A stretch of 64,000 bases of DNA, taken from Lacrimispora sp. BS-2. GTDB lineage: Bacteria; Bacillota; Clostridia; Lachnospirales; Lachnospiraceae. Position numbers and translations under genes: made by a program. Positions within the stretch are counted from its first letter, which is position 1; each line of letters begins with the position of its first letter. The stretch covers positions 3,286,001 to 3,350,000 of the forward strand of contig NZ_CP157940.1 in NCBI RefSeq assembly GCF_040207125.1. Reading direction: 5' to 3'. The notes beneath the pieces are model-generated. The model did not search any database. It saw only the letters and a program-made list of their open reading frames with translations, and was not told the DNA's origin. Below are positions 26,873 through 35,353 of this stretch, piece by piece.

Positions 26873-27745
26873 TTGAGTGAAAAACAGACAACTTATAAGA
26901 ATGTAGCCGGGTTCCGCTGCTTAAGGAACATCAAACGGCAGACCAATGATCTGTACCTGGTTCACTGCGGAATCCAGCAGTGTCCTCCCGGATACACCTA
27001 CGACCACAAGATTCCAAATGAATATCACCTGCACTTTGTGATAGGCGGCGCAGGGTCCCTGGAAGTTAATGGAAAACGGTATGATTTAAAAACCGATGAC
27101 ATCTTTCTCATTCCCAAGGGCCATCCCGTTCTTTACAATGCTGATTGCAAAAACCCCTGGGAATACATGTGGATCACCTTTGACGGAGAAATGGCGGAGG
27201 CTTATTTAAGCTATGCGAGCCTGTCTCCACAGCTCCCAGCCATCCATTCCCAGATTCCCAATCAGCTTTATCTTCCCATGATACACAAAATACTGGATAC
27301 CAGCGAGCTGACCTTTGCCAATGAAATCAAACGGGTGGGATACTTATACGAAATACTGTCCACCCTGATCGAAATGCAGAATACCATAAGAATCATTAAA
27401 AAGAACCAGCACGACTATTCCATCGATACTTATGTGGATTATGCCCTTCAGTATATTAAGCTGAACTATGATCACATCAAAGTCCAGGACATTGCGGACT
27501 ACATTGGGATCAACCGCTCCTATTTAACCTCAATCTTCAAAAAGCAGCTTCACGTTTCACCTCAGGAATACTTAATGAGGTTCCGGCTTAACATTGCCGC
27601 CCACCAGCTTTCCGCCACATCCTTATCCATTCAGGAAATCGCCACAGGAATCGGATATCATAACCCTTTAACCTTTTCCAAAATATTCAAACAGGAATTC
27701 GGCGTCAGCCCCAAGCATTACAGGGAAGAAAAACGGCAGCCATAA
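26873..27745 (+). CDS. AraC family transcriptional regulator
   Basis: 290 residues starting at TTG (26873) with GAGGGGG 8 bases upstream. Cupin-type N-terminal domain (YEYHLHF-like NEYHLHFVIGGAGSLEVNG, DIFLIPKGHPVLYNADCKNP) and two C-terminal helix-turn-helix units (VQDIADYIGINRSYLTSIFK, KQLHVSPQEYLMRFRL, IATGIGYHNPLTFSKIFKQE). It shares its plan with the AraC protein at 24511-25308; two such regulators in one sugar locus may sense different sugars or form a cascade. Confidence 0.88.
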   Translation: MSEKQTTYKNVAGFRCLRNIKRQTNDLYLVHCGIQQCPPGYTYDHKIPNEYHLHFVIGGAGSLEVNGKRYDLKTDDIFLIPKGHPVLYNADCKNPWEYMWITFDGEMAEAYLSYASLSPQLPAIHSQIPNQLYLPMIHKILDTSELTFANEIKRVGYLYEILSTLIEMQNTIRIIKKNQHDYSIDTYVDYALQYIKLNYDHIKVQDIADYIGINRSYLTSIFKKQLHVSPQEYLMRFRLNIAAHQLSATSLSIQEIATGIGYHNPLTFSKIFKQEFGVSPKHYREEKRQP

Positions 27746-27821
27746 GAATTTCCTATAGCCATCGCTGCAGCTGCCAAATGAACATACAAACGTGTTCGCC
27801 CAGCTCCTTGGACACAAAAAA

Positions 27822-27854
27822 GCAGGAGGCTGGTCCTTTAGGACTGCCTCCTGC
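27822..27854 (-). terminator. Terminator of the DUF1858 gene
   Basis: On the minus strand GCAGGAGGC / GCCTCCTGC (9 bp), with an inner AGTCC/GGACC stem, followed by TTTTTTG. It also faces the convergent araC gene. Confidence 0.8.
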
Positions 27855-27862
27855 AACATATT

Positions 27863-28063
27863 CTATTTGTCTGCTAACACTTCATTAATCTGGGAAACCA
27901 GAACATCACAGTCTATTCCATGAACCTGGCAGGCTTCCTCCAGGGACTCACCCTGAGATGCCGGACAACCGAGGCAATGCATACCTGCACGCATTAACAT
28001 AGGTGCAATGTTCTCGTCCATTTCTAGCAATGCGCCTATTAACATATCCTTTTGGATCTGCAT
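27863..28063 (-). CDS. DUF1858 domain protein
   Basis: 66 residues: [40 protein letters not shown]. The CxxC in HCLGC with the preceding alanine-rich helix is the signature of DUF1858 small proteins, often linked to hybrid-cluster protein or iron-sulfur/redox genes; their biochemical role is unknown to me. It is transcribed divergently from the formate-lyase operon across 250 bases, which suggests shared anaerobic regulation. Strong AGGAGG site. Confidence 0.82.
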
Positions 28064-28192
28064 CTTGTGTTCCTCCTTAAAAAATTGTACTTACTGTCTT
28101 TATAATATAATACTTTTACTTATGATTAGCAAGGACTAAATTCTATTTTTTCATTCAGGTTCCCTTCTGATGGTTTTTCTCAATTAAGAACC

Positions 28193-28221
28193 TTGACATT
28201 GTATACAGTATTATGTATAAT
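28193..28221 (+). promoter_or_regulatory. Consensus sigma-A promoter of the formate-lyase operon
   Basis: TTGACA (28193-28198), 17-base spacer, TATAAT (28216-28221): a perfect consensus, implying very high expression. An 8-bp hairpin (CAAAGATT / AATCTTTG, 28231-28257) would form at the very 5' end of the leader, which could stabilise the mRNA. Confidence 0.85.
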
Positions 28222-28313
28222 ACATTCATACAAAGATTGTAGGAATTATAATCTTTGACGGCACTCATTTATAACTTACACTTATACAGTTAGATTTCAC
28301 GGAGGTAAATATT

Positions 28314-30374
28314 ATGAGAACAGAATGGAGAGCCTTCACAGGCGGTGTTTGGGAACGGGAGATCAACGTCAGGGACTTTATACAGAAAAATTACACTCCT
28401 TATGATGGAGATGATTCTTTTCTTGCCGGACCAACCACAGAAACAAACGCTCTTTGGGCGCAGGTTATGGACTTATCCAAGCAGGAACGGGATGCCGGCG
28501 GCGTCCTGGATATGGATATAAAGACCATTTCCACCATCACCTCCCACGGGCCGGGATATTTAAATAAAGATAAAGAAACAATCGTAGGTTTTCAGACCGA
28601 TAAGCCTTTCAAACGTTCTTTACAGCCTTACGGCGGCATCCGTATGGCAGAAAAAGCCTGTGCAGATAATGGTTATACCATTGATCCTGAAGTCAAGAAA
28701 TTTTTTACAGTTCACAGAAAGACACACAATGCCGGTGTTTTTGACGCTTATACCCAGGAAATGCGCGACTGCCGTTCCAACCACATCATCACAGGCCTTC
28801 CGGATGCTTATGGCCGCGGACGTATTATCGGAGATTACCGCCGGGTGGCCCTGTACGGCATTGACCGCCTGATTGAGGATAAGGAAGAACAGAAGGATAC
28901 GACCCGTACCACCATGTACTCTGACGTGATCCGGGAAAGAGAAGAGCTTTCTGAGCAGATCCGTGCCCTTAAAGAATTAAAGGAGCTGGGAAGAATCTAT
29001 GGCCTTGATATTTCCAAACCGGCCGCCAATGTAAAAGAAGCGATCCAGTGGCTGTACTTAGCTTACCTTGCCGCTGTCAAGGAGCAGAACGGAGCCGCCA
29101 TGTCCTTAGGCCGTACCTCCACCTTTATTGACGTATATGCACAGAGAGATTTAGAAGAGGGGACCTTTACCGAGGAAGATATCCAGGAGGCTGTAGACCA
29201 TTTCATCATGAAGCTTCGTCTGGTCAAATTTGCCCGTACTCCGGAATACAATGAGCTGTTCTCCGGCGATCCTACCTGGGTAACAGAATCCATCGGAGGA
29301 GTCGGCATTGACGGACGCCATCTGGTGACCAAGACCTCCTTCCGCTACCTCCACACCCTTAAGAATCTGGGAACAGCTCCTGAGCCGAACTTAACCGTGC
29401 TCTGGTCCACAAAGCTTCCGGAAAACTTTAAGCGCTTCTGCGCTAAGACCTCCATCGAGTCCTCTTCTATCCAGTATGAGAACGATGATCTGATGAGAGT
29501 GACCCATGGAGATGATTATGCCATTGCCTGCTGCGTATCTTCCATGAGGGTTGGTAAGGAAATGCAGCTCTTCGGCGCACGTGCCAATCTGGCAAAGTGC
29601 CTGTTATATGCCATTAACGGCGGCATTGATGAAGTTACCAAAAATCAGGTCGGCCCTAAATACCGTCCCATCACTTCTGAGTACCTGGATTATGAGGAGG
29701 TTATGGCTGCCTATAAGGATATGATGAGCTGGCTTGCAAGGGTTTATGTAAACACCCTGAACGTCATTCACTATATGCATGACAAATACAGCTATGAGCG
29801 CATTCAGATGGCTCTTCACGATAAAAAGGTAACCCGTTGGTTCGCAACCGGTATTGCCGGACTTTCCGTAGTGGCTGACTCTTTATCCGCTATCAAATAT
29901 GCCAAGGTAAAGACGGTCCGGGATGAAAACGGAATCGTGGTTGACTACATCGTAGAAGGAGACTTCCCAAAATACGGCAATAACGATGACCGGGTAGACC
30001 AGATTGCAAACGACCTGGTTCACACCTTCATGAACTATATAAAAGGAAACCATACCTACCGGGGCGGTATTCCAACAACCTCTATCTTGACAATCACCTC
30101 CAATGTCGTATATGGTAAGAATACAGGAGCAACTCCTGACGGACGTAAGAAAGGCGAAGCCTTTGCACCTGGTGCCAATCCAATGCATCATAGAGATACC
30201 CACGGCGCCGTCGCTTCCCTTGCATCGGTTGCAAAGCTTCCGTTTAAAGATGCCCAGGATGGCATCTCCAATACCTTCTCCATCGTACCGGGAGCTCTTG
30301 GTAAGGAAGATCAGATTTTCACAGGAGATTTAGAGGTAGATTTAGAGCTGGCTCTTAATGAAGACCAGAAGTAA
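28314..30374 (+). CDS. pflB: Pyruvate formate-lyase catalytic chain lacking its glycyl-radical domain
   Basis: 686 residues. It follows PFL throughout: [37 protein letters not shown], and the thiyl-radical site [10 protein letters not shown] with Cys406-Cys407. The C-terminal part [20 protein letters not shown] and [19 protein letters not shown] is where ordinary PFL (about 740-760 residues) continues directly into the glycyl-radical domain. Here the chain instead ends [10 protein letters not shown]. The radical glycine is supplied by a separate gene (30677-30922). The enzyme cleaves pyruvate plus CoA to acetyl-CoA and formate in the anaerobic cytoplasm. GGAGG site, consensus promoter; same operon as the two small genes and activase. 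No decay is visible, so the split looks functional. Confidence 0.9.
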
Positions 30375-30386
30375 GGAGTGGTTATT

Positions 30387-30656
30387 ATGGCAGACCCAAA
30401 GGAGAAACTGATTGACGATATCGTCTCCATGCTTGACCAGTTCATGGCCGGAAAGGTTGGCCACATGAACATCCGTGTATCAGAAGACGATACGGTAAGT
30501 ACCGATAAAACAATGGCAAAATCAGTTACCACCATGAACTCCACGGATTGTGCAGACGGAAATTCCGCCTGCAGAGTACCGACTTTGTTCGAGGCCATGG
30601 ACACAGACGGGGAATACCCGGAAAGCAACCGGCTGTTTATGGAAGACACTTATTAA
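30387..30656 (+). CDS. Small protein of the split formate-lyase operon, resembling a radical domain without the Gly loop
   Basis: 89 residues from ATG 30387 (AAGGAG site, 8 bases), 12 bases after the pflB stop. By eye, residues 7-39 ([20 protein letters not shown], then [10 protein letters not shown]) align with the start of the glycyl-radical protein ([30 protein letters not shown]), with matches at I, V, LD, H, N, V and DT. The remainder has no RVSGYA radical loop; it carries two cysteines (DCADGNSAC) and an acidic tail ending NRLFMEDTY. Function unknown. It could be a structural subunit that holds the radical domain or the catalytic chain, a regulator of activation, or a diverged duplicate. 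A small Fe-S subunit as in benzylsuccinate synthase is less likely with only two Cys. Confidence 0.75.
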
Positions 30657-30676
30657 TACAAAAGGAGGATCAGAAA

Positions 30677-30922
30677 ATGACAAATATCAGCGAATCTCAA
30701 ATCAATAACCTTGTTAATTTATTAGATGGCTATGTGGAAGAAGGCGGACATCACTTAAATGTCAATGTCTTCACCCGTGATACCCTGTTAGACGCCCAGA
30801 ACCATCCGGAAAATTATCCCCAGCTTACAGTCCGGGTATCCGGTTATGCGGTGAATTTTATTAAGCTTACAAAGGAACAGCAGGATGAGGTGATTTCCCG
30901 TACGTTCCACAACAATATGTAA
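30677..30922 (+). CDS. Stand-alone glycyl-radical domain (GrcA/YfiD-like) of pyruvate formate-lyase
   Basis: 81 residues, AAAGGAGG site 9 bases before the ATG. The sequence [59 protein letters not shown] is the complete C-terminal domain of PFL. The radical-bearing glycine is Gly56 in RVSGYAV, and the tail HNNM matches the usual HSxM-like end. In E. coli GrcA (YfiD) a comparable protein repairs oxygen-cleaved PFL; here the catalytic chain has no radical domain of its own, so this protein must be the obligatory partner rather than a spare part. The activase gene follows after 24 bases. Confidence 0.9.
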
Positions 30923-30946
30923 TAAAAAGCAAAGAAGGCGATCTGT

Positions 30947-31720
30947 ATGACAGGATATATACATTCCATTGAAAGCTTTGGTACCGTTGACGGGCCGGGC
31001 GTGCGCATGGTGATTTTTTTACAGGGCTGTCCCATGCGCTGCCAATACTGCCATAATCCGGACACCTGGAAAATGGCGGGCGGCACGCCGATGACAACAG
31101 AAGAACTATTAAAGCAGTTTGAATCGTCCCGGAATTTTTACCGGGGAGGAGGCATAACGGCCACCGGCGGGGAGCCCCTTATGCAGCTGGATTTTGTGAC
31201 TGAGCTTTTTGAAGCCGCAGCAAAGAAAAACATCCATACCTGTCTGGATACCTCAGGTGTCACATTTCATGGGAATGATCCGGATTACAGGAAGAAAATA
31301 GACCGTCTTCTGGACTCTACCGATCTTATCATGCTGGACGTCAAGCACATTGATGACACAAAGCACAAAACACTTACAGGGCATTCCAATGAAAACATTC
31401 TGGATTTTGCCCAGTACTTAAGTGACCGGGATATCCCGGTGTGGGTCCGTCACGTGGTAGTACCCCAGATCACAGATGAAACCCCTGATTTATACAGGCT
31501 GGGGCGTTTTATCGGCGGACTTAAGAATGTGAAGGCCCTTGATGTCCTGCCTTATCATGACATGGGAAAGGTAAAATACGAGAGCCTGGGTATGGAATAT
31601 CCTTTAAAGGATATTCCTCCCATGTCAAAAGAAGGAGCCGTTGCCGCCAAGAAGATCATCCTAAGCGGGATCAGGGATGTCCGCACAGGAATCCCTGATC
31701 GGTATTGCTCCCAAAATTAA
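30947..31720 (+). CDS. pflA: Pyruvate formate-lyase activating enzyme (radical SAM)
   Basis: 257 residues. IHSIESFGTVDGPGVRMVIF precedes the radical-SAM cysteines C28-x3-C32-x2-C35 (GCPMRCQYCHNPDTW). GGITATGGEPLMQLDFV and DTSGVTFHG belong to the SAM-binding barrel. It reductively cleaves S-adenosylmethionine and abstracts hydrogen from the glycine of its target, here presumably Gly56 of the small protein encoded just upstream. Length is typical. It is the fourth gene of the operon. Confidence 0.93.
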   Translation: MTGYIHSIESFGTVDGPGVRMVIFLQGCPMRCQYCHNPDTWKMAGGTPMTTEELLKQFESSRNFYRGGGITATGGEPLMQLDFVTELFEAAAKKNIHTCLDTSGVTFHGNDPDYRKKIDRLLDSTDLIMLDVKHIDDTKHKTLTGHSNENILDFAQYLSDRDIPVWVRHVVVPQITDETPDLYRLGRFIGGLKNVKALDVLPYHDMGKVKYESLGMEYPLKDIPPMSKEGAVAAKKIILSGIRDVRTGIPDRYCSQN

Positions 31721-31809
31721 ACAATAATTGTACCATTTTCTACTTGAATATTTCTGATTTATAGTATAAAATATAGAAAAATCTATAAATTATAAGGAGG
31801 TATTTTATC

Positions 31810-31980
31810 ATGGCACGTGTTATTAGTGACGCTTGCGTTAGTTGCGGAAGTTGTGAAGGTGAGTGCCCAGTAAGCGCTATCAGCCAGGGTGATTCTCAGT
31901 TTGTTATTGATGCTGATGCTTGTATCGATTGTGGCGCTTGTGAAGGCGTCTGTCCTACAGGAGCTATTTCTGAAGCATAA
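31810..31980 (+). CDS. 2[4Fe-4S] ferredoxin
   Basis: 56 residues with two clostridial ferredoxin cluster motifs: CVSCGSCEGECP (about 9-20) and CIDCGACEGVCP (about 38-49), separated by the usual pseudo-twofold repeat. It has an AAGGAGG site and lies 89 bases after pflA, ending in a strong terminator. It is a low-potential electron carrier and a plausible donor for the formate-lyase activase, as well as for hydrogenase and pyruvate:ferredoxin oxidoreductase. Confidence 0.92.
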   Translation: MARVISDACVSCGSCEGECPVSAISQGDSQFVIDADACIDCGACEGVCPTGAISEA

Positions 31981-31992
31981 TTATGAATACAT

Positions 31993-32024
31993 AAATGCCT
32001 CTTCCTTTACGGAAGAGGCATTTT
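31993..32024 (+). terminator. Terminator of the formate-lyase/ferredoxin region
   Basis: AATGCCTCTTCC / GGAAGAGGCATT (12-bp perfect stem, TTTAC loop) followed by TTGTTAT. Confidence 0.85.
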
Positions 32025-32026
32025 GT

Positions 32027-32114
32027 TATATCATGAACCTGCGGTTCATGATCGGCATTCAACCTTTGCAACCATGAACAAGCTCATCTTCGCTCTCTTG
32101 CGCTCATTATATCA
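32027..32114 (+). repeat. Dispersed palindrome-containing repeat, copy 2
   Basis: Same element as 8553-8636 in the same orientation: ATCATGAACC-TGC-GGTTCATGAT palindrome, a conserved middle (GATCGGCATTCAAC, CATGAACAAGCTCATCTTCGC) and ending CTCATTATATCA. It carries an extra CTCTTGCG compared with copy 1. It lies directly after a terminator. Confidence 0.65.
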
Positions 32115-32184
32115 TCAAGTTCTTCATATCTGCATAATAATGGATCAGACGGGTATGCCTGCATATCCAGCTGATTCAAAAACA

Positions 32185-32216
32185 AAGGGTTGAAAGATGT
32201 TTTTCTTTCAACCCTT
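32185..32216. promoter_or_regulatory. Leader hairpin before the C26 peptidase gene
   Basis: AAGGGTTGAAAG / CTTTCAACCCTT, a 12-bp perfect stem with an 8-base T-rich loop, 24 bases before the start codon. There is no T tract on the plus strand, but the minus strand continues TTTGTTTTTG. It may be a leader structure or a terminator for a leftward RNA. Confidence 0.4.
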
Positions 32217-32239
32217 CATTAGGAAAGGACATTTCTAAT

Positions 32240-32953
32240 ATGAGAAAACCACTGATCGGCCTGACCCCCGCCCACGATACCGAAAGCGGTGATATTAAGG
32301 CGCGCCCTACTTATATGCGGGCGTTAAAGGCTGCGGGAGCTATTCCAGTCGTAATGCCCCTTAATGCCCCGGAAGAGGATCTAAGACAGCTTTCACAGGA
32401 TCTGGACGGGTTTCTGTTTACAGGCGGCCCCGATGTACATCCCTTTCTTTTTGGGGAAGAGACACAGGCTCACTGCGGCAATGTATCCGCAGCCAGGGAC
32501 CAGATGGAGATATCCCTGCTTCCTATGATTATGGAGCTTAAAAAGCCGGTTCTTGGGATCTGCCGGGGAATTCAGGTTTTAAATATCGCTCTCGGAGGAA
32601 ACATCTGGCAGGATATCCCCTCCCAGGTAATACGGGAATTTCCTCTGGCTCATTCCCAGCCATTTCATTACGATATGCCGTGCCATAGGGTTGCTTTAAG
32701 GGAGGACACTCTCCTTGCCCGGATATCAGGAAGTTCCTCCATAAAGGTCAACAGCATGCACCATCAGGCTGTCAGGGATCTTGCTCCCGGACTTATTGCT
32801 TCAGCCCGCTCGACCGATCATTTGATTGAAGCCATTGAAATGCCTGGTTATCCCTTTTTTATTGGGGTTCAATGGCATCCGGAATATCTATGGGAAGAGA
32901 ATGAAGAAGCGTTTCGACTGTTTCAGACTTTTGTAAAGGCTTGTAAAGAATAA
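32240..32953 (+). CDS. Gamma-glutamyl-gamma-aminobutyrate hydrolase family (peptidase C26)
   Basis: 237 residues of the class I glutamine-amidotransferase fold. The opening RKPLIGLTPAHD, the oxyanion strand GFLFTGGPDVHP, the nucleophile Cys in VLGICRGIQVLNIALGGN, and the catalytic His/Glu in GVQWHPEYLWEEN are all present. PuuD-type members hydrolyse gamma-glutamyl-GABA in putrescine breakdown; others act on gamma-glutamyl amines generally. No other putrescine genes are nearby, so the substrate is uncertain. AGGAAAGG site upstream. Confidence 0.85.
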   Translation: MRKPLIGLTPAHDTESGDIKARPTYMRALKAAGAIPVVMPLNAPEEDLRQLSQDLDGFLFTGGPDVHPFLFGEETQAHCGNVSAARDQMEISLLPMIMELKKPVLGICRGIQVLNIALGGNIWQDIPSQVIREFPLAHSQPFHYDMPCHRVALREDTLLARISGSSSIKVNSMHHQAVRDLAPGLIASARSTDHLIEAIEMPGYPFFIGVQWHPEYLWEENEEAFRLFQTFVKACKE

Positions 32954-33055
32954 TCTGTTTGCGTAAAAAATCCGCAGTTCCTACTTTCATCGGCAGCTGC
33001 GGATTTCCTTGCCAGAGTCTGTTTGACTGCTCTATTATCTGAAAGTAGTGTGGTT

Positions 33056-33715: not shown

Positions 33716-33870
33716 AGCTATATCCTCTCCTTTGGTTCGTTTAGTTTTCATAACCTTACTATTTATATCATATGCTGGCTTCTGATGGATTATGAATGGG
33801 AATTGGAAATTTTTTGAAGGATTTGAGAAATTTTTGAAGGGAGAGGGTGGGAATGGCTGGGCCGCAGGGG

Positions 33871-33917
33871 CCATCATGGAGAAGGGATTCGAACCTCGAA
33901 TCCCTTCTCCATGATGG
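33871..33917. repeat. Perfect 22-bp inverted repeat carrying a tRNA 3'-end-like sequence
   Basis: Arms 33871-33892 and 33896-33917 are exact reverse complements, separated by ACC. The minus-strand copy includes GGTTCGAATCCCTTCTCC, which resembles a tRNA T-arm plus acceptor 3' strand, but no complete tRNA is present on either side. It is the first of three abutting palindromes. Confidence 0.85.
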
Positions 33918-33931
33918 GGGGCGTTCGCCCC
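33918..33931. repeat. Short GC-rich perfect palindrome
   Basis: GGGGCG-TT-CGCCCC, a 6-bp perfect stem directly abutting the palindromes on both sides. Confidence 0.7.
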
Positions 33932-34007
33932 ATAGAAAAAGAGGGGTCCCTGTTCCCGAAAAGCAAAAATGCTTGCTTTTCGGGAACAGGGACCCCTCTT
34001 TTTCTAT
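33932..34007. terminator. Perfect 35-bp inverted repeat, probable terminator of the dnaB operon
   Basis: Arms 33932-33966 and 33973-34007 are exact reverse complements with a 6-base loop. The outer part is AAAAAG / CTTTTT, so the minus-strand RNA would form a GC-rich hairpin of more than 25 bp followed by CUUUUUC. It begins 5 bases beyond the dnaB stop codon. The length and perfection exceed an ordinary terminator. The symmetrical tails make it bidirectional. Confidence 0.75.
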
Positions 34008-34012
34008 CCTGC

Positions 34013-35353
34013 TCATTGCCGGGCCATGTTTGCAAACTTCGTATATTCCGGTCTCCAGACCAGATTAATGGTCCCAATAGGGCCGTTTCTCTGTTTTGCA
34101 ATAATAACCTCTGCAATATTAGGCATATCCGTATCCTTATTATAATAATCATCACGGTATAAGAACATAACCACGTCCGCATCCTGCTCGATGGCTCCGG
34201 ATTCTCGGAGGTCGGAGAGCATGGGGCGGTGGTCTGGTCTTGTTTCGCAGGCCCGGCTTAGCTGGGATAAGGCAATTACGGGAGCGTTCATCTCTCTTGC
34301 CAGGGCTTTTAGGGATCTGGAGATTTCTGATATCTCCTGCTGGCGGTTTTCGCCGCCTTTTCCGCTTCCGCTCATCAACTGAAGGTAGTCGATGATGACC
34401 ACGCTAAGACCGTATTCCAGCTTCATCTTACGGCATTTGGAGCGCAGTTCCCCAATGGAGATTCCCGGGGTATCGTCAATGATCAGCTTGGAATTGCCGA
34501 TGACTCCGATCCCCTCCACTACGGCATCCCAGTCGGTATCGGATAAGGTTCCTGTTCTAAGCTTCTGGGAATCTACATTGGATTCCATGGCCAGCATACG
34601 ATTTACCAGCTGTTCCTTTGACATCTCAAGGCTGAATACCATACAGGGCAGGCCCTTTTTTACAGCAATATGGTCTACCAGGTTCAGCACAAAAGCCGTC
34701 TTTCCCATGGAAGGGCGGGCGGCGATCAGGATGAAATCGGAAGGCTGAAGGCCGGAAGTCTTATAATCCAGGTCAATAAAGCCTGTGGGGATTCCGGTTA
34801 CGGTTCCCTGGTTCTTGGAAGCCTCCTCGATCTTTTCCAAAACGTTCATGGCAACCTGGCGGATGGGTACGAAATCCCCGGAGTTACGGTTCTGAAGCAG
34901 ATCAAATATGGTCTTTTCCGTAACAGCCATAATGGTTTCCAAGGGTTCTTTTCCTGCGTAGCAGGTGTTGGCTATTTCTTCATTTGCCTTAATAAGCCGT
35001 CTTAGAACCGCCTTATCACGGACAATATTGGCATAGGACTTTATATTGGCGGATGTAGGAACCGTGGTGATGATGTCCCTTACAAATTCCAGGCTTGAAA
35101 CTTCGGGAGGAACATCCTTTTCCTTTAAACGGTTTTGAAGAGTTACCAGATCCACCGGCAAATTCTCATTAAAAAGCTCCAGCATGGCCTCAAACATGAT
35201 GCCATACTGGTGCTGGTAAAAATCTCCTGCTGTAACGATCTCGGAAGCCGTGATGATTGCATCCCGGTCCATCAGCATGGAACCGATGACGGATTGCTCT
35301 GCCTCTATGCTGTGAGGCAGCACCCGTTTGATCAGGGCATCATCCATGTTCAT
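34013..35353 (-). CDS. dnaB: Replicative DNA helicase DnaB
   Basis: 446 residues. The N-terminal DnaB domain begins LPHSIEAEQSVIGSMLMDRD (about 8-110), a linker follows, then the RecA-like helicase core with Walker A IAARPSMGKTAFVLNLVDH, Walker B VVIIDYLQLMSG, the GENRQQEISEISRSLKALAR segment and the C-terminal arginine finger region. It is the hexameric fork helicase. It starts 5 bases after rplI, completing the gdpP-rplI-dnaB cluster found in many Firmicutes (there the helicase is also called dnaC). Confidence 0.95.
   Translation of the reverse strand: MNMDDALIKRVLPHSIEAEQSVIGSMLMDRDAIITASEIVTAGDFYQHQYGIMFEAMLELFNENLPVDLVTLQNRLKEKDVPPEVSSLEFVRDIITTVPTSANIKSYANIVRDKAVLRRLIKANEEIANTCYAGKEPLETIMAVTEKTIFDLLQNRNSGDFVPIRQVAMNVLEKIEEASKNQGTVTGIPTGFIDLDYKTSGLQPSDFILIAARPSMGKTAFVLNLVDHIAVKKGLPCMVFSLEMSKEQLVNRMLAMESNVDSQKLRTGTLSDTDWDAVVEGIGVIGNSKLIIDDTPGISIGELRSKCRKMKLEYGLSVVIIDYLQLMSGSGKGGENRQQEISEISRSLKALAREMNAPVIALSQLSRACETRPDHRPMLSDLRESGAIEQDADVVMFLYRDDYYNKDTDMPNIAEVIIAKQRNGPIGTINLVWRPEYTKFANMARQ

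Follow-up and report, generated by a model that had tools for sequence, protein, structure and literature searches.

A split pyruvate formate-lyase in Lacrimispora sp. BS-2 and a cysteine module that may replace its lost covalent tether

Many fermenting anaerobes obtain acetyl-CoA and formate from pyruvate formate-lyase (PFL), an enzyme known for bearing the radical on its own chain: PflA places the radical on a glycine, and the glycine passes it to an active-site cysteine. In the stretch of DNA analysed here (64,000 nucleotides of Lacrimispora sp. BS-2, contig NZ_CP157940.1, referred to as the window), the pflB frame ends before the radical domain, which is encoded by a small gene of its own. 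This raises the question whether such a divided enzyme is native or the product of damage and, if native, what takes the place of the covalent link between the catalytic chain and the radical domain.

Organisation of the locus

The genes pflB, MID, grcA3 and pflA follow each other on the + strand in that order (Table 1). Against TIGR01255, PflB scores 1098.6 bits (cut-off 994.2) and has the Cys pair, while the match covers only positions 2–665 of 744, the same-chain glycyl-radical loop being missing; the last 25 residues come after [11 protein letters not shown]. GrcA3, the NCBI name for family NF038360, reaches 166.7 bits (cut-off 158) and possesses the radical glycine motif, and PflA reaches 308.6 bits against TIGR02493 (cut-off 231.75). 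The 106 positions of the Pfam domain Gly_radical are divided between the two chains, with 1–51 on PflB and 50–106 on GrcA3, which are complementary halves of one domain. As PflB aligns with E. coli PFL up to residue 682 and GrcA3 with residues 681–759, the two together make one complete PFL. Cys406-Cys407 of PflB and Gly56 of GrcA3 were located by script.

Table 1. Features of the split PFL locus (positions in the window)
Feature	Position	Strand	Basis
Putative sigma-70 type promoter, TTGACA-17-TATAAT	28193..28221	+	consensus match 12/12
pflB, truncated catalytic chain, 686 aa, without radical loop	28314..30374	+	profile and motif
Cys406-Cys407 codons, active-site pair	29529..29534	+	homology
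Gly_radical first half (1–51 of 106), on PflB	30162..30314	+	Pfam
MID, 89 aa, GrcA3-like N-half and two-cysteine C-half	30387..30656	+	ORF, alignment
MID Cys55 codon (30549–30551) to Cys62 codon (30570–30572)	30549..30572	+	29-row alignment
grcA3, glycyl-radical protein, 81 aa, Gly_radical 50–106	30677..30922	+	profile
Gly56 codon in RVSGYAV, radical glycine	30842..30844	+	homology
pflA, PFL-activating radical SAM enzyme, 257 aa	30947..31720	+	TIGR02493
Intrinsic-terminator-like hairpin past pflA	31993..32023	+	consensus match only

The original prediction, made from the window alone, had described a 686-residue PflB with the Cys406-Cys407 pair and no radical domain, a separate 81-residue radical gene with a perfect ribosome site, and a consensus promoter. 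The profile and Gly_radical matches agree with this description, as do the ribosome site of grcA3 (AAGGAGG, 7 of 7) and the promoter-like sequence TTGACA-17-TATAAT (12 of 12); promoter-like sites in the region total 12, against 8.9 in shuffled sequence. The 302 bases between the pflB stop and the grcA3 start, previously taken as a mere gap, turned out to hold the gene of an 89-residue protein, MID, with its own ribosome site. Matches to the seven-base ribosome site number 7 for GrcA3, 6 for MID, 5 for PflB and 4 for PflA. An Rfam scan of positions 27000–33000 gave no match.

Two further observations concern the surroundings. A DUF1858 gene of 66 aa (27863–28063, − strand) lies divergently upstream of pflB, and a very similar protein is encoded in the same position at a second locus (L011:1476-1676, − strand). 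At 33768–34182, frames overlapping on both strands repeat the peptides EKEGSLFPKSK.. and GVPVPEKQ.., which suggests an inverted repeat between two genes.

The MID protein

A protein search yielded 43 MID sequences, that of the window among them. The C-half carries the motif ..C..ACxVPTLFEG.D with two cysteines, Cys55 and Cys62, both invariant in a 29-row alignment. The N-half resembles that of GrcA3 (hhalign 95.9%, E 5.6e-9, for one pair), the single-sequence NCBIfam comparison of MID with GrcA3 covering residues 6–37 only at E 0.048. The RVSGYAV radical loop that marks the GrcA family is missing from MID. MID has no Pfam match, and no relative was found among solved structures; its predicted structure is poor (pLDDT 54), with a helix at residues 4–21 and a short second helix.

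MID was also sought in genome contigs with back-translated patterns, which gave four loci (L010-L013). L010 and L011 belong to Lacrimispora and a relative, while the matches in Verrucomicrobia (L012) and Lentisphaerae (L013) were taken for chance, as they lie antisense to a long unrelated ORF.

Evidence for a native split

The genome of the organism is a single contig of 4,489,992 bases, 99.97% complete. Pfam PFL-like and Gly_radical searches found no second or full-length PFL in it, and, of other glycyl radical enzymes, they found CutC and NrdD alone. Throughout the genus, 24 of 25 genomes (our own included) have one PFL match, counted at E 1e-100 with weaker pieces outside the listing, and it is truncated in each: none of the 24 reaches the end of the profile. 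The matched span is profile 2 to 665–669 in 22 cases and 33–665 in G598, while that of G605 stops at 625; the latter match (G605:C1:3247226-3249094) is interrupted, with one TGA inside. MID is present in the same 24 genomes.

Across the four genes, dN/dS is 0.03–0.17 where computable. For MID it is 0.07–0.17 against four relatives, three of which give a dS above 1, and a fifth pair is saturated and gives no value. MID and the other operon genes are thus apparently under purifying selection.

The same arrangement recurs in a family sample of 299 genomes, one per genus, our own included. GrcA3 matches above the cut-off occur in at least 101 of the 299; those of G252, G096 and G074, counted within the 101, are the C-termini of full-length PFLs. 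We read the 134 GrcA3-match rows of other genomes that, among the matches listed, lie in open frames of less than 200 aa (lowest score 152 bits; 113 genomes). In at least 113 of the 298 other genomes, in one row each, GrcA3 stands alone and a truncated PflB ends upstream of it, which is the pattern of short PflB proteins beside GrcA-like genes that the original prediction had proposed to look for.

The remaining 21 of the 134 rows have no pflB in view. Twenty are second, unlinked grcA3 copies, and one (L153) abuts the edge of a contig at its start and allows no judgement; the genomes concerned all own a split operon, 20 of MID type and one, G097 (that of L153), of the type with a cysteine tail on PflB. 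Unlinked second copies, which would fit a supply of spares, occur in 20 of the 113 split-PFL genomes. Five of the 21 loci (L104, L166, L171, L184 and L189) have a regulator-like neighbour gene, presumably a Crp/Fnr-type regulator look-alike, and grcA3 genes in such company might provide regulated spare parts. Ribosome-site strength gave no clear sign of an excess of GrcA3 over PflB, the median being 6 of 7 matches for both (107 loci for PflB, 113 for GrcA3).

In a class sample of 291 genomes, there are at least 13 standalone cases outside the family and one of the same genus. In the phylum sample (398 genomes), matches passing E 1e-43 come from G180 and our own genome only. Two PflB records, P0178 (805 aa) and P0232 (821 aa), contain a long internal duplication and are perhaps assembly chimeras.

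Because no full-length PFL was found here or in the genus, the arrangement recurs in the family and the genes appear to be under purifying selection, we regard the split as the native state, which is well supported. A reading of GrcA3 as a normal spare part, serving a full-length PFL that is damaged by oxygen and encoded elsewhere, with the short PflB as a vestige, would agree with the NCBI family name, autonomous glycyl radical cofactor, and with the joint presence of split and full-length PFL in G265, G085, G296, G284 and G132 (among the matches listed). However, a GrcA/YfiD spare part presupposes a full-length PFL to rescue in the same genome, and none was found in ours or among the 24 matches of the genus, so that we hold this to be highly improbable. 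PFL is normally a single chain and truncated frames often mean errors, but a sequencing error parting the frames, or an operon decaying as a pseudogene, is hardly conceivable given a break point shared across the genus (22 of 24 matches running from profile 2 to 665–669), the same split in at least 113 of 298 other family genomes, a dN/dS of 0.03–0.17 and ribosome sites in the window matching at 4 to 7 of 7 bases; both were rejected. Two of the objections that the original prediction had itself named, joined frames and a second complete pflB, are answered by these results. That the native enzyme consists of two pieces stood in part only: the split is native, but there is a third part, either MID between the two genes or a cysteine tail on PflB. 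That an oxygen-cleaved GrcA3 might be thrown away and cheaply renewed, as the original prediction proposed, would be one possible use of a separate radical chain.

A cysteine module in cis or in trans

The 113 split loci fall into two types. In 72, MID is present and the tail of PflB has no cysteine (trans); in 36, the tail has at least two cysteines and MID is lacking (cis). MID never occurs together with tail cysteines (0 of 113), and five loci have neither. For three of these five (G282, G297, G002), MID lies elsewhere in the genome (L234, L235, L236), near a gene in G282 and adjoining it in G297 that we take to be proB. In the other two, G288 and G130, MID was not found anywhere in the genome and there is no recognisable module (2 of 113 loci). 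The two positions of the module, MID and the PflB tail, are thus mutually exclusive.

Both forms vary in sequence. Past the strand, MID has two cysteines in 21 cases, three in 48 and four in 3 (72 MID proteins). The motif of the cis tails is frequently that of MID: the strict form C.xP[TN] is found in 21 of the 36 cis tails and not in the other 15, and shorter variants such as DCACCEPN exist. A profile of the MID C-half matches 15 of the 36 cis tails and misses 21, and it matches none of the PflB proteins of the trans (67), full-length (35) and remaining (5) groups; it was built from the same loci, and the trans group excludes PflBs interrupted by a contig end. When a cis-tail PflB was the query, at least two tail cysteines were present in 117 of the 120 matches listed (two had none, one was unreadable), a count biased by the query. 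By comparison, the matching linker has no cysteine in 32 of the 34 readable full-length PFLs (35 in total), the exceptions being L217 with one and L199 with three. The cysteine module is tied to the split state. A predicted structure of a cis-tail PflB was unusable (pLDDT 51.5, from a shallow 41-row alignment).

Outside the family, MID-type loci are L238, L248 and L250, and cis-type loci are L240, L241, L244, L245, L246 and L247, the record of L247 having a frame break and the tail of L244 being a short CC only. The module is therefore found in 9 of the 13 split loci read there, or 8 if L244 is left out, and no recognisable module is present in the remaining four (L239, L242, L249 and L251).

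Evolutionary history

A tree was computed from 141 PflB cores, of which 108 are split (the window's included) and 33 full-length; L122, L225 and L227, where there was no cut point, were left out, as were five split loci whose PflB was partial or unread. Every split row lies within one well-supported branch, which also holds seven full-length PFLs. A single clade of split rows is rejected (AU p 0.0047, on 52 of the 141 rows), and full-length PFLs sit in two places within the split branch. With the root of the tree unproven, this suggests one split and two re-fusions as the simplest account; several independent splits are the alternative.

Among the nested full-length PFLs, only L199 has a cysteine-rich linker, while those of the other six are not. 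This protein (from G096) retains three cysteines (CGCEEVTC), and looks as if a cis-tailed PflB had been re-fused to GrcA3.

On the tree, the placement of the module must have switched between cis and trans at least 11 times. Of seven independent pairs with good support, 0 went in the same direction, 5.7 in opposite directions and 1.3 showed no difference on average (p 0.031, range to 0.0625).

Possible roles of the module

Of the possible explanations, we favour one in which the only PFL found in this organism is a natural split enzyme of separate parts, with the cysteine module most likely replacing the lost covalent tether, and we give this whole reading about an even chance. PflB would supply the barrel and the thiyl-radical cysteines, GrcA3 the loop with the glycyl radical, and the third part would be a short cysteine module, carried by MID here and by the C-terminal tail of PflB elsewhere. 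From the known chemistry of PFL and GrcA, PflA would install the radical on Gly56 of GrcA3, whose helix and GGHHLNVNV strand would dock into the open PflB barrel, and GrcA3 would pass the radical to the Cys406-Cys407 pair. MID, which seemingly carries a relative of the GrcA3 helix and strand with a cysteine motif instead of the radical loop, would dock on PflB, and the module would most likely keep PflB recognisable and loadable for GrcA3 and PflA.

This proposal draws on laboratory work with E. coli PFL, in passages of Andorfer 2021 (PMC8683613). The enzyme cut at residue 695 and combined with YfiD shows wild-type activity once activated, but binding of YfiD to it is undetectable and activation is 32-fold lower; binding needs PFL residues 696–733 and the N-half of YfiD. 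A naturally truncated PFL, like the present one cut near residue 682, should therefore need a replacement recognition element. We propose the module as this element because its location suits that role, it is tied to the split state and, in MID, it includes a GrcA-like part. In our alignment, E. coli PFL residues 681–759, which hold the recognition element, contain no cysteine, so that cysteines are not required for such an element in general.

The module might instead be a redox latch, in which a disulfide formed in air would block radical loading or shut the open barrel until released on reduction, a reading that is possible but that we consider rather unlikely. At least two cysteines lie past the strand in all 72 MID proteins (as in the 36 cis tails, which are so defined), their spacing varies as a disulfide would allow, and oxygen damages PFL, as passages of PMC8683613 state. 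However, conservation reaches past the cysteines (P-T/N-L..G-L-D), which points to docking.

We also regard as doubtful that MID is a dummy radical subunit. Docking through its GrcA-like helix and strand, it would occupy the vacant radical site of PflB, the cysteine motif keeping the barrel protected and loadable, and GrcA3 would displace it at radical installation and be discarded after oxygen damage. If this were true, PFL would cycle between a stored partner (MID) and an active partner (GrcA3), and the cis-type PflB would have a like cysteine element built in, lost in most of the re-fused chains. A related idea, with MID on one protomer and GrcA3 on the other (half-of-sites), was dropped, as passages of Kammel 2025 (PMC12338860) argue against half-site reactivity in E. 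coli PFL.

A metal or iron-sulfur site on the module, aiding radical installation, is quite improbable. The analogy is with NrdD, where a zinc site near the radical domain may help radical installation, and 48 of the 72 MID proteins have three cysteines past the strand and 3 have four; however, 21 have only two, the window's MID among them, and the spacing between the cysteines is variable. It is very unlikely that the function of this small protein is unrelated and its place in the operon accidental: MID lacks a Pfam match and a known solved relative and lies away from pflB in G282, G297 and G002, but its N-half resembles GrcA3, it excludes cis tails and it occurs in 24 of 25 genomes of the genus.

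Relation to known systems

The PflB of the window is like the E. coli type (TIGR01255; PDB 1h16) in its core of about 670 residues, its Cys-Cys pair and its paired PflA. It differs in aligning to residue 682 followed by a short tail, with 681–759 as a separate protein. GrcA3 (NF038360) shares with GrcA/YfiD (TIGR04365; PDB 6owr) the standalone RVSGYAV radical domain. Passages of PMC8683613 describe E. coli YfiD as a spare part that serves a full-length enzyme and whose N-half, 60 residues long, is disordered. The GrcA3 of the window, by comparison, lies beside a truncated PflB, and no other radical domain for PFL was found. The laboratory pair of tPFL (E. coli 1–695) and YfiD has the same two-part design and is active once activated, but this artificial pair, as passages of the same paper describe it, binds and activates poorly, while the natural split PFL usually has a cysteine module.

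The closest solved chains to the PflB of the window are PDB 38la and 38lb (Formate acetyltransferase; 1131 and 1158 bits). The former has 687 aa and ends LGKED, and the latter, of 739 aa, has a C-x2-C near the beginning of its tail. Both appear from their sequences to be large chains of split PFLs, though 38la could be a cut construct. GrcA3 as a query matches neither, and no GrcA3 or MID chain was found for either entry. A fold search with the poor cis-tail PflB model had E. coli PFL as its top match, and the two entries are not in the best 50 of its 182 matches; the library was that of 8 April 2026, and they were presumably released later.

The name GrcA3, and GrcA as a spare part, are already known, and the covered passages of a Fusobacterium review (PMC12288474) present GrcA only as a replacement for the cleaved enzyme. 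A natural split PFL, GrcA3 by name or the cysteine module did not appear among the open-licence papers listed. The split itself is at most freshly known, and the cysteine module in cis or in trans appears to be new.

Implications

A native and widespread split PFL would show that a radical cofactor can be a replaceable subunit, and would suggest how a cell affords the part of PFL that is most sensitive to oxygen. "Autonomous cofactor", the database name, would then be a wrong description of a protein whose radical domain is the sole one found here for PFL. As the module occurs in cis or in trans but never in both (113 loci), it would make the recognition and loading of a separate radical domain testable with two or three proteins.
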